The notes under the pieces are model-generated. The model was not told where the DNA came from, ran no database searches, and worked only from the letters and a program-made list of their open reading frames with translations. Below, piece after piece: positions 47,820 through 50,488 of a stretch of DNA of 64,000 nt. This DNA comes from Ligilactobacillus agilis DSM 20509 (GTDB lineage: Bacteria > Bacillota > Bacilli > Lactobacillales > Lactobacillaceae): the NCBI RefSeq assembly GCF_001436215.1, contig NZ_AYYP01000001.1:1-64000 (forward strand), written 5' to 3'. Each line of letters begins with the position of its first letter. Position 1 is the stretch's first letter. A program made the translations under genes and the position numbers.

Positions 47820-47855
47820 TAAAAAGACAGGAAGTGTACTTCAGCTTCCTGTCTC
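47820..47855 (-). terminator. Terminator after PfoR-like gene
   Basis: Stem AGACAGGAAG / CTTCCTGTCT with a T-rich tail on the minus strand, just past the stop at 47864. Confidence 0.85.
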
Positions 47856-47863
47856 TTTCAATC

Positions 47864-48976
47864 CTAAAGGATGTTTAAATGTAATTCGTTATCTCTTACC
47901 AAGCCAACTTTCTTCATCAGCTTGAAGCCCACAACAGAGAATAACGCTGGTAAAACAAGCCCACAAAGGACGTAAACGCCAAATGTTCCTAAACCTTGGC
48001 CCCAGAAGTAGATTGGCGCGATAAAGGAGTTAAGCCCTAACCCCCCAACAGTGTACGGAGCTTGGAAACCAAAGACCACTGTTGCTAACGGAGCACAAAC
48101 CATGGCTGAAACCAACGGTGGTAACAATTGCCAAGGATTCACGATTAAGTTAGGGAATTGTAATTTAGGTGTAACTACAAATTGAGCAACGTTTGCTCCG
48201 ATGGTATTTTGCTTGTATGACATAGCTGTGAAGCCTACGAATTGAGCCGTTGTCCCAATTGCTGCCGCCGCAGCTGAAACGGGATCCAAGGTTAAGGCGA
48301 CTGCCAAGGCTGCCGATGAAGCTGGGGTCATTAAGAATAACGCCCACACCATTGAGATGCAAACCGAACCAACAAACGGATTAACCTTCATAGATTCAGC
48401 GATAAAGGCACTAACACTAAGTAAAGCTGGAGTTACAACTGCCGCTAAGCCTAGTCCGACTAAAGTCCCGACCATGGTAGCACCAAATGGTACTAACACC
48501 ATGTCAAGTGGAGTCTTACCAGAAAGATACTTCCCAACCAAGGCTGCCACTAACCCTGCCGCTACCGCAGAGATAGGTTGCCCGGTTGAAAAGACCCCGG
48601 TGCCAGCGGCTTGAACTGCGGTTTGACCAGTCGCAGTTACGGTTGCGACCCCATTTGCTGCAGTAACAAAGTGAACCGCGTTTGCCCCAACTGTTGCGGC
48701 AATCATCGAACTAAACATTACCAAAGTAGTTACTCGTAATTGTGAGGCAACTGCTAGCCCTAAGGCTGGTGCTAATAAATCTTGTGCCAGCGTCCCAGCT
48801 TGATAAAGTGGTTGAAAATGAACAAAACCAGCAATGGTTTGCATCAACAACCCCATCCCTAAGGTAACTAAAATTGCATTAGCTACCGCAGCTGAGATAT
48901 TATAGGCGTATTCTTTAACAGTTGTTCTATCTTGGCCTGCATTCGCAAAGGCACTCGTCTTTGTAGTTGCTTCCAT
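47864..48976 (-). CDS. PfoR/PTS EIIC_2-type membrane protein
   Basis: Integral membrane protein, 370 residues, very Ala/Val/Gly-rich, about ten segments. It matches the family annotated as PTS sugar transporter subunit IIC (EIIC_2) or PfoR, for example LMTPASSAALAVAL and GTTAQFVGFTAMSY. Real substrate and any PTS role are unproven; no EIIA or EIIB is nearby. A GGAGAAAG site precedes the ATG. It is expressed through a leader-peptide attenuator (49010-49213), whose logic suggests that it responds to translation of a Val/Ile/Leu-rich peptide. Confidence 0.75.
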   Translation of the reverse strand: MEATTKTSAFANAGQDRTTVKEYAYNISAAVANAILVTLGMGLLMQTIAGFVHFQPLYQAGTLAQDLLAPALGLAVASQLRVTTLVMFSSMIAATVGANAVHFVTAANGVATVTATGQTAVQAAGTGVFSTGQPISAVAAGLVAALVGKYLSGKTPLDMVLVPFGATMVGTLVGLGLAAVVTPALLSVSAFIAESMKVNPFVGSVCISMVWALFLMTPASSAALAVALTLDPVSAAAAAIGTTAQFVGFTAMSYKQNTIGANVAQFVVTPKLQFPNLIVNPWQLLPPLVSAMVCAPLATVVFGFQAPYTVGGLGLNSFIAPIYFWGQGLGTFGVYVLCGLVLPALFSVVGFKLMKKVGLVRDNELHLNIL

Positions 48977-49009
48977 ATTCTTTCTCCTTTTATCTTGCCC
49001 TTATAATTC

Positions 49010-49050
49010 CAACAAAAAAAGCATCCTCCGTTACAAACGGTGGATGCTTA
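49010..49050 (-). terminator. Attenuator terminator before PfoR-like gene
   Basis: Minus strand: a GCATCC.CCGTT / AACGG.GGATGC stem with a T7 tail, 35 bp upstream of the ATG. Its 5' arm (TCCACCGTT) can instead pair with AGCGGTGGA at about 49058-49066, and that segment can also pair with CCACGGCGCGCT further upstream, giving the classical 1:2, 2:3, 3:4 set. Confidence 0.85.
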
Positions 49051-49111
49051 ACTTCTTATTCCACCGCTCGTTACCTTTTGGTTAGCGCGCCGTGGATTAA
49101 ATGCTCCTAGA

Positions 49112-49213
49112 CTAATAAGCCGAGACATTCGATCGCACCTGACGCGCGTTGATAATGACTAGGCTGAGAATAATGTATTCAACTGTAGCGAAAACTGTTA
49201 CCAAGTTTGTCAT
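49112..49213 (-). CDS. Branched-chain-rich leader peptide (33 aa)
   Basis: An open frame of 33 codons with AAGGGAG upstream of its ATG. The first two thirds are rich in Val, Ile, Leu and Thr (MTNLVTVFATVEYIILSLVI), followed by an Arg-containing end and a TAG stop. It lies between a consensus-like -10 (minus-strand TATAAT at 49274-49279) and the alternative hairpins and terminator. Position and structure fit a regulatory leader peptide; a small membrane peptide with its own function cannot be excluded. Confidence 0.65.
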   Translation of the reverse strand: MTNLVTVFATVEYIILSLVIINARQVRSNVSAY

Positions 49214-49273
49214 TGCGACCGACTCCCTTCTTAAATAAAGATTAAAATTGAATTAGTTTTCCCTTTGTTAAGT

Positions 49274-49279
49274 ATTATA
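49274..49279 (-). promoter_or_regulatory. -10 element of the leader transcript
   Basis: TATAAT on the minus strand, 60 bp before the leader ATG; a TTGTAA -35-like hexamer lies upstream with a rather long 19-bp spacer. Confidence 0.45.
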
Positions 49280-49327
49280 ATAACAGATAAAAAAATAATT
49301 ACAAGGCTTTTTTAAGAATTTTTTCAT

Positions 49328-50488
49328 TTATTTTTCAGAAAGCAACCGAGTTCCAATTATCAACATGATAACCGAAGAAAGTACGTAGTTAAGCGGCAAA
49401 TAGAGATAATTACCGGTCCAATCCATCAAAGAGCCTAGGGCCAAAGGAATGATTCCGGCCATAATGTAGCCACCAGCCTGCATTAACCCTGTTTTCAAGC
49501 TCGCCTCATCAGCCTGAGTTGAAAATTGTAAGGGTAACAACAAGGAAATTGGAAATAGTCCCCCACTTCCAATCGCAAATAGGAGGATAGCCACGAAGTA
49601 GGCCCAGTCATTGCTTCCTAACCAAAAGGTCAAGCCACTGAAAAGGGCTGCCACGGTACAAAAAATATTCCAGTTTTTAGTTGAGCCAAACCGGTCCATT
49701 AAACTTGGAATAATAAAACTGCAAGCCGTAATCAGCACCATCATCACGGTTAAGTAAAGTGTATTTTTTGCCGCTGGCAGGTTCCGACTTGAAAAAAACG
49801 ACGTGGTCCAGGCAACTGCACTGTAATAAATTCCCGATTGGAAACCAAAGTAGAGGATTAAGGCCCACATCTGCTTCGTCTGTAAAAGTTCACTCACTTT
49901 TAAGGGTGAAGAAGTTTGGCTAGTAAGCTTAGGGGCTTTTTTATCATCGGCTGCCCCAAGTTGCCAAACTAGGGCTGAAACTAAGGCAATTACGCTCCAA
50001 ATCCCCAGGCCAACTTGCCAAGAGTAACGGTGACTTAGACTAAGAGCTGCCCCTGAGGCAACCGTAGCCCCGACCCCCATTGAAAGTGAGTAAACTCCCA
50101 CCATACTACCTTGATGGTGGGGAAATTGTTCCTTGATAAAGCCAGATAGCATTGGGCCAATGATTGCGATTGTTAAGCCAATGATAAAGGCTGACAAGCA
50201 TAAACTAATAAAAGAGTGGCTACCTAAACGTGTAGCCGCCGCAACAAACATCAAGAGCAAGAGGTAAAAAATACTCCGCTTGCGCCCATATTTAGTCTGA
50301 AGTAGCCCGACAAAAAAGGCAAAAATTCCCATACAAAAAACTGGGATACTGGTTAGTAGGCTGACCTGAAAATTACTGAGGCTCAACTTTAGCTTCAAAT
50401 AGTCTACCACAGGAGAAACACTAGTGATTCCCCACCGGAGGTTAAAGGCCACAATAATTACCAAGGCAACATTTTTGAAAATTTTCAT
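49328..50488 (-). CDS. MFS transporter, CynX/NimT-like
   Basis: Twelve-segment major facilitator of 386 residues. NLRWGITSVSPVVDYLK at the N-terminus and LLQTKYGRKRSI in the loop 2-3 position fit the CynX/NimT (cyanate/nitroimidazole) group. Substrate unknown. A TAAGGAG site precedes the ATG. Single gene; a terminator-like hairpin at 50536-50561 lies just upstream. Confidence 0.82.
   Translation of the reverse strand: MKIFKNVALVIIVAFNLRWGITSVSPVVDYLKLKLSLSNFQVSLLTSIPVFCMGIFAFFVGLLQTKYGRKRSIFYLLLLMFVAAATRLGSHSFISLCLSAFIIGLTIAIIGPMLSGFIKEQFPHHQGSMVGVYSLSMGVGATVASGAALSLSHRYSWQVGLGIWSVIALVSALVWQLGAADDKKAPKLTSQTSSPLKVSELLQTKQMWALILYFGFQSGIYYSAVAWTTSFFSSRNLPAAKNTLYLTVMMVLITACSFIIPSLMDRFGSTKNWNIFCTVAALFSGLTFWLGSNDWAYFVAILLFAIGSGGLFPISLLLPLQFSTQADEASLKTGLMQAGGYIMAGIIPLALGSLMDWTGNYLYLPLNYVLSSVIMLIIGTRLLSEK

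Follow-up and report, generated by a model that had tools for sequence, protein, structure and literature searches.

What does the short hydrophobic reading frame ahead of the PTS_EIIC_2 gene of Ligilactobacillus agilis control, which signal would it read, and what might the controlled protein do? The window, i.e. the whole stretch of 64,000 nucleotides that was analysed, carries on its minus strand a gene for a membrane protein of 370 amino acids from this family (PF13303; 47864–48976, Pfam E 3.5e-74). It is very likely that the element in front of this gene is a leader-peptide attenuator, a judgement made without transcript data. That it is specific for branched-chain amino acids, most clearly leucine, with isoleucine and valine, is held with the same high confidence. 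The complete reading, an attenuator responding to branched-chain shortage in front of an inferred importer, is likely.

All features of the leader lie on the minus strand and are given here in the direction of transcription. A promoter-like pair, TTGTAA (49299–49304) and TATAAT (49274–49279), is followed by a Shine-Dalgarno sequence, GAAGGGAG (49223–49230), and by a leader peptide frame of 33 codons, MTNLVTVFATVEYIILSLVIINARQVRSNVSAY (49112–49213), taken from the list of open reading frames and supported by its relatives. Taken alone the promoter is unremarkable: TTGTAA with an overlapping TATTAT scored 9/12 in a promoter scan, not above chance, and the scan reported 2 promoter-like sites in 501 bases vs 1.5 in shuffles. 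Between the Shine-Dalgarno sequence and the start codon lies segment A, TCGGTCGCA (49214–49222), which pairs with segment B inside the leader, TGCGATCGA (49129–49137), as judged from a duplex test and the alignment. The probable control codons, ATT ATT CTC AGC CTA GTC ATT ATC (I I L S L V I I, 49151–49174), were assigned from conservation and the rare CTA. They are followed by the GC-rich segment 0, CGCGCGT (49142–49148), which by its duplex energy is able to pair with segment 1, TCCACGGCGCGCT (49084–49096). Segment 1 also pairs with segment 2, AGCGGTGGA (49060–49068), in four aligned leaders, and alignment and folding make segment 2 the partner of either segment 1 (OFF) or segment 3 (ON). Segment 3, TCCACCGTT (49036–49044), identified from the alignment, is both the 5' side of the terminator and the antiterminator partner of segment 2. 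The intrinsic terminator (49014–49049, -16.9 kcal/mol) consists of a hairpin at 49019–49049 and a run of seven T at 49014–49020. A simple terminator scan reported none in the window leader, probably owing to a mismatch in the stem. Behind the EIIC_2 gene a further hairpin with a T run (47821–47854, picked by eye and unscored) was found; hence the transcript probably comprises a single gene. Upstream of the leader an MFS gene (49328–50488) lies on the same strand. A second small frame, MSRLISLGAFNPRRANQKVTSGGIRS (49048–49128), overlaps the end of the leader and spans segments 1 and 2.

The leader RNA of the window folds better than 200/200 dinucleotide shuffles (z -2.70). At the gathering score no Rfam family, including RF00230, matches the window. 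A T-box in the window leader was considered and rejected, as no RF00230 match was obtained in 48900–49350 even at E<=5.

A sequence-only reading had proposed this layout of promoter-like TATAAT, Shine-Dalgarno sequence, 33-codon frame, stems, terminator and gene, and it held on the minus strand. For the distance from terminator to gene it gave 35 bp; 37 nt were counted from the T run to the ATG (48976). Its anatomy was incomplete, however: the start:end pairing A:B and segment 0 with its pairing to segment 1 had been missed. Segment 1 lies 3' of the leader stop codon and, consequently, is out of reach for simple masking by a stalled ribosome. The logic of the switch requires both A:B pairing and the region pairing with segment 1. 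The pairings of the window form a chain, A:B, (0/B):1, 1:2, 2:3 and 3:4, whose alternate members are the OFF and the ON sets. In the proposed mechanism, ample charged tRNA, or no translation of the leader, would leave the OFF set in place, in which A:B and 1:2 form and 3:4 terminates transcription. A ribosome stalled on the Ile, Leu and Val (ILV) codons would allow the region after those codons to capture segment 1, whereupon segment 2 would be released to pair with segment 3, so that the terminator would be blocked and the EIIC_2 gene transcribed.

The attenuators of the E. coli leu, ilv and trp operons work by stalling on control codons and by alternative hairpins, and the leu leader has rare Leu codons. 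The window shares with them the alternative hairpins, the rare Leu codons and, in the model, the stalling on control codons. In E. coli, however, segment 1 lies with the control codons inside the frame, whereas in the window leader the parity of the switch is kept by the additional A:B helix and by one more hairpin step.

Upstream regions of related genes were collected from named genomes (65), from the genus (7 loci with high scores, the window locus among them) and from the order (59; 55/395 genomes matched at E<=1e-60). One of these 131 regions (L068, containing runs of N) was removed, and 114 were left after near-identical ones had been taken out. The closest protein among the genomes searched is that of Ligilactobacillus ubinensis (87–88% identity). 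A leader was called when an ATG frame of 10–50 amino acids with a Shine-Dalgarno sequence, at least 36% Ile/Leu/Val and a run of three such residues was followed by a terminator. This rule found 47/130 regions, or 38/114 non-redundant ones; 20 dinucleotide-shuffled sets gave 0 or 1 each (mean 0.2). As a second control, the rule called 8/249 upstream regions of other frames in the same loci, two of which precede genes linked to branched-chain metabolism, namely a leuA/leuC remnant of Periweissella and a hydratase-like gene of Weissella cibaria. Under strict rules 64/114 loci, including the reuteri-group Limosilactobacillus, had no leader, CodY-like box or T-box; at least eight of these have leaders picked by eye (L050, L051, L055, L060, L061, L065, L066 and L067). 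Examples of leaders are MAPSAIVLTIIILVLVIIIVRAVRSRIPAF (L. mucosae), MLVIIIIGLLLDLVLIITT... (L. gorillae, start only), MTNTFNKQVNNALLLNLLLI (Leuconostoc) and MTKTVMNNANNALLLGLILDLIIIS (Weissella). In the window and three relatives the LVII block is conserved in 4/4 aligned leaders.

The choice of Leu codons in the leaders is unusual as well. In Leuconostoc-type leaders CTC makes up 63/88 Leu codons vs 1% in the EIIC_2 genes behind these leaders, in Ligilactobacillus and Limosilactobacillus leaders the rare CTA makes up 12/25 (3% in genes), and Weissella leaders mostly use TTA (25/36 vs 16% in genes). Base-pairing constraints may explain part of this bias, which sequence comparison shows, and the related sequences are not independent.

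The stems were compared in a Leuconostoc-type alignment (n=16) and in the window alignment (n=4, the window and three relatives). Each structure was drawn from one member of its alignment, which favours that structure. In the Leuconostoc type the OFF set (A:B, 1:2, 3:4 and terminator) contains 8 pairs with two-sided changes vs 1.8 in shuffles (reached in 0/500). The ON set is 94.7% paired and almost invariant with one two-sided change, and its covariation is not above shuffles (86/500). For the OFF set of the window type, 9 two-sided cells were counted vs 4.5 in shuffles (0/500); by pair count, 5 pairs with two-sided changes vs 3.8 are not above shuffles (120/500). Among the four aligned leaders the 1:2 stem is paired in 100% of cells with one two-sided change, and the terminator has three pairs with two-sided changes. 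The antiterminator 2:3 is 100% paired in 4/4, with one such pair and covariation not above shuffles (92/500). Terminator and antiterminator stems, which are mutually exclusive, are thus both present and conserved in these leaders.

The duplex between the leader start and the region after the control codons is stronger than in shuffles (window p=0.005). The same holds with p<=0.01 in 5/6 Ligilactobacillus and Limosilactobacillus leaders, L. gorillae being the exception (p=0.10). Quite different letters make up this start:end pairing in L. equi and L. gorillae. In L. mucosae A:B shows a two-sided change to TTGATCGCA/TGCGATCAA. Outside these genera the test is mostly not significant: p<=0.05 was reached in 6/38 leaders, five of them from Ligilactobacillus or Limosilactobacillus. 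The combined Fisher value is 6.6e-6. The duplex of the post-control region with segment 1 amounts to -16.4 kcal/mol in the window and -19.7 kcal/mol in L. ubinensis, where segments 0 and 1 read GCATGC/GCATGC.

Whether the position of the ribosome would decide between the two sets was predicted with an equilibrium folding model in which only the RNA downstream of the ribosome is folded and P(1:2) or P(2:3) is read. The expected switch was obtained in 3/4 close leaders and in 15/15 Leuconostoc-type leaders. For L. ubinensis P(1:2) does not exceed 28% until the A site has passed I19, and is 83–85% from I20 (84% without ribosome). For L. mucosae it is <=13% through I17, 63% at I18 and 82% from I19 (82% without ribosome). 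Lactobacillus sp. MRS-253-APC-2B gives <=14% through V16, 45% at I17, 58% at I18 and 81% from I19, the value also predicted without ribosome. In the Leuconostoc type (n=15) P(2:3) is 71–99% with the ribosome on the LLLNL codons vs 1–29% at the stop codon; without ribosome it is <=0.44 in 13/15 leaders, and for L065 and L066 the state without ribosome is predicted to be ON. When pairing of the terminator arm was measured instead, most Leuconostoc-type leaders gave no clear switch, although the earlier decision (2:3) did show one. ON is mostly predicted for ribosomes halted at earlier codons too. Hence, the model locates the flip at the control codons and shows no amino acid specificity.

The leader of the window itself is predicted to switch only weakly, which is the main weakness of the case. 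P(1:2) is 59–73% with the A site at I14–I21, 75% at the stop codon and 70% without ribosome. Segment 1 is held upstream (61–66%) only with the ribosome at codons 3–4, and the 5' arm of the terminator is paired upstream to 57–63% at every codon and to 49% at the stop codon. Possibly kinetics decide in this leader.

Other regulators stand before related genes. Three other genomes of the genus have a leucine T-box ahead of the EIIC_2 gene, with the specifier CUC in 3/3. These T-boxes, found in E-value mode only (1.6e-7 or better), score 73.6, 58.9 and 45.3 bits, all below Rfam's 93; at the gathering score, 14 related loci gave only a tRNA and two T-boxes, neither before an EIIC_2 gene. To calibrate the specifier column, T-boxes of the window genome were used whose genes we take, by eye, to be leuS, tyrS, asnB, hisZ, metN and a BrnQ-like carrier. 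The leucine T-box (RF00230) would read the same inferred signal for the same target gene in three related species, whereas the window leader has no T-box match. CodY-like boxes (<=2 mismatches to the CodY box consensus, within 200 nt) occur in 9/114 loci, vs a mean of 1.1 and a maximum of 4 loci in 30 shuffled sets, and one is perfect (Enterococcus sp. HY326).

Some isoleucine T-boxes were also seen. The one before the BrnQ-like carrier of the window genome, so named by eye, lies at G000:C36:42250-42498 (L095; specifier AUC). A gene resembling, by eye, 2-keto-4-pentenoate hydratase adjoins the EIIC_2 gene and has an isoleucine T-box (AUC, plus strand) in three genomes (L006 3269–3534, L007 2236–2477, L008 3170–3421). 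The hydratase-like gene of Weissella cibaria (L060:481-1260, minus strand), with family matches below the cut-off, resembles these by eye and is preceded by an ILV leader, MTNMQHTANLIIRDIISIIIIR.

The sequence-only reading had claimed ribosome-mediated attenuation. The claim is supported by ILV-rich leaders in several lineages, covariation of the OFF stems and rare control codons. It had also proposed comparing stems and peptide across relatives: the OFF-state helices covary, 2:3 is kept without covariation above shuffles, and ILV-rich leaders with a terminator are found as counted above. The branched-chain amino acid it had suggested as signal is supported too, also by the independent leucine T-boxes and CodY-like boxes; the alternative it had named, translation stress, is unsupported in the present analysis.

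What the controlled protein does can only be inferred. It scores well within PTS_EIIC_2 (250.2 bits, gathering cut-off 28.9), and PF13303 is its sole Pfam match. An AlphaFold model (pLDDT 79) shows a PTS EIIC fold, with structure matches to modelled PtsG (Z 17.3), modelled PttBC (16.7), the MalT crystal structure (16.1), PtsG from cryo-EM (15.8) and ChbC (11.8). The alignments to EIIC structures cover 309–324 residues; in helical proteins a Z below about 13 may arise by chance. The PDB structure matches with Z >=8 include no amino acid carrier, which is not evidence of absence, and sequence searches of the PDB gave no relative up to E 1, nor up to E 10 with a profile. PTS sugar permeases have IIB/IIA partner domains and conserved Glu/His residues for sugar binding and phosphotransfer. 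No invariant Glu or His was found in 20 hand-chosen related proteins, which were compared by sequence alignment without reference to a solved EIIC structure. The fold is thus common to the window protein and the PTS EIIC glucose superfamily (PtsG, MalT, ChbC); unlike in that superfamily, the window gene is very likely under amino-acid-responsive control and PF13303 is the only domain found.

A branched-chain aminotransferase gene adjoins the EIIC_2 gene in 11/69 loci (two tested above the curated cut-off, the others found by BLAST). Further neighbours are a LivJ-like binding protein (7/69) and a BcaP-like permease (2/69), in each case with the one tested below the cut-off, and a leuA/leuC remnant (1/69). 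This remnant, in Periweissella beninensis (L075, 1262–2197), seemingly joins the start of leuA to the end of leuC and has a Leu leader of its own, MSIKINAKTTLLNLLL; possibly it is a decayed leucine operon. In L047, L056 and L080 a neighbouring frame resembles, by eye, a further PF13303 gene, as tandem copies would. A branched-chain aminotransferase is encoded in the window genome (99.99% complete), but there is no match to the ilvC and ilvD families, both of which match in 14/14 control genomes. From regulation, neighbours and missing biosynthesis genes we infer, with a modest preference over the alternatives, that the product transports branched-chain amino acids. It would be an importer of these (or of their keto acids) with an EIIC fold and without PTS phosphorylation. 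The substrate predicted here is that of the branched-chain carriers BrnQ/LIVCS and BcaP; the window protein differs from them in family, with PF13303 only.

PF13303 occurs in 105/151 genomes of the window's family and in 0/14 control genomes. A second PF13303 gene of the window genome (G000:C8:46712-47704; L002, L186) has a terminator and the leader MLKKTTLQLNNYYYFYFFRKGL, which is rich in Tyr and Phe (YYYFYFF); its L. ubinensis counterpart has the leader MIKPVSLQSNSYYYFYFFKECL. Four related paralogues from other genomes of the genus, PF13303 being confirmed for two, carry a tyrosine (UAC) T-box (53.5–56.9 bits, below Rfam's cut-off). They are 40–46% identical to the genes with YYYFYFF leaders and 23–24% to the window protein where aligned. 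A fifth paralogue, L014 (97% to L019), has no T-box match upstream; the end of a group II intron (L014 2706–2775) lies upstream of this gene, whose close relatives have the tyrosine T-box. The pairing of ILV leaders with leucine T-boxes and of YYYFYFF leaders with tyrosine T-boxes points to two clades, each reading one amino acid via two unrelated sensors. A bolder reading, to which we lean only slightly, is that PF13303 proteins are amino acid transporters on a PTS EIIC fold without PTS phosphorylation, with a branched-chain clade (ILV leaders, leucine T-boxes, CodY-like boxes) and a Tyr/Phe clade (YYYFYFF leaders, tyrosine T-boxes). No recognised signal was found in 78/80 further PF13303 upstream regions, a partial selection in which orthologues of the window gene are in part included; the greater part of the family is therefore unexplained.

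Among the rival explanations, the one that survives best keeps the same attenuator and assigns another role to the protein, which might carry e.g. branched-chain 2-oxo acids, or regulate or sense uptake. This is possible: the aminotransferase is a neighbour in some loci and present in the window genome, and sequence searches gave no solved relative. Against it, leucine T-box and leader would both read a shortage of tRNA-Leu, and since the host has no ilvC/ilvD match, a starvation-induced importer is the simplest use. Judged by its codon pattern and by the regulators of related genes, it is very unlikely that the leader is inducible by antibiotics or translation stress, with a drug-stalled ribosome opening the gene. 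Resistance genes often have a leader peptide with an attenuator, and upstream of the gene the window encodes two MFS transporters; however, the feature conserved across lineages is the runs of Leu, Ile and Val codons, many of them rare, and some related genes have leucine T-boxes or CodY-like boxes instead. Very unlikely, too, is a hydrophobic small membrane protein with hairpins that merely terminate the upstream gene, for which the hydrophobic peptide and the MFS gene on the same strand speak. Against it, Leuconostoc-type and Weissella leaders have 19–25 amino acids, conservation (judged by eye) lies mainly in their ILV end, and mutually exclusive pairings are conserved.

The preferred reading, an attenuator responding to branched-chain shortage before an importer, has a counterpart in another Firmicute. 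Staphylococcus aureus ilvD (ilv-leu) is controlled by a leucine-rich leader-peptide attenuator, whose terminator lies 52 nt after the leader stop, and by CodY as second regulator of the operon (PMC5794164). The short Ile/Leu-rich peptide and the alternative structure are common to both; unlike the window locus, the S. aureus attenuator controls biosynthesis and not a PF13303 gene. The transporter classes listed for T-boxes are ABC, APC, DAACS, LIVCS, MFS, NHAC and NSS; 54 T-box genes of unknown function are also listed, which might include PF13303 genes (Wels 2008, PMC2494555). A search of open-access titles and abstract beginnings, which was not exhaustive, gave no paper that connects PF13303/PfoR with leader peptides or with branched-chain amino acids (papers used: PMC5794164, PMC2494555, PMC3766115, PMC8632094, PMC9413887, PMC2843714).

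Leader-peptide attenuation is best known from biosynthesis operons, mostly those of Gram-negatives. In the loci compared here, which span several lineages of Lactobacillales, it very likely controls a transporter-like gene and interchanges with leucine T-boxes and CodY-like boxes. A family annotated as sugar PTS components thereby gains a testable function, amino acid uptake. If true, a fold known for sugars would also serve an amino acid carrier, and it would be easier to understand how bacteria that lack branched-chain biosynthesis detect these amino acids and scavenge them.
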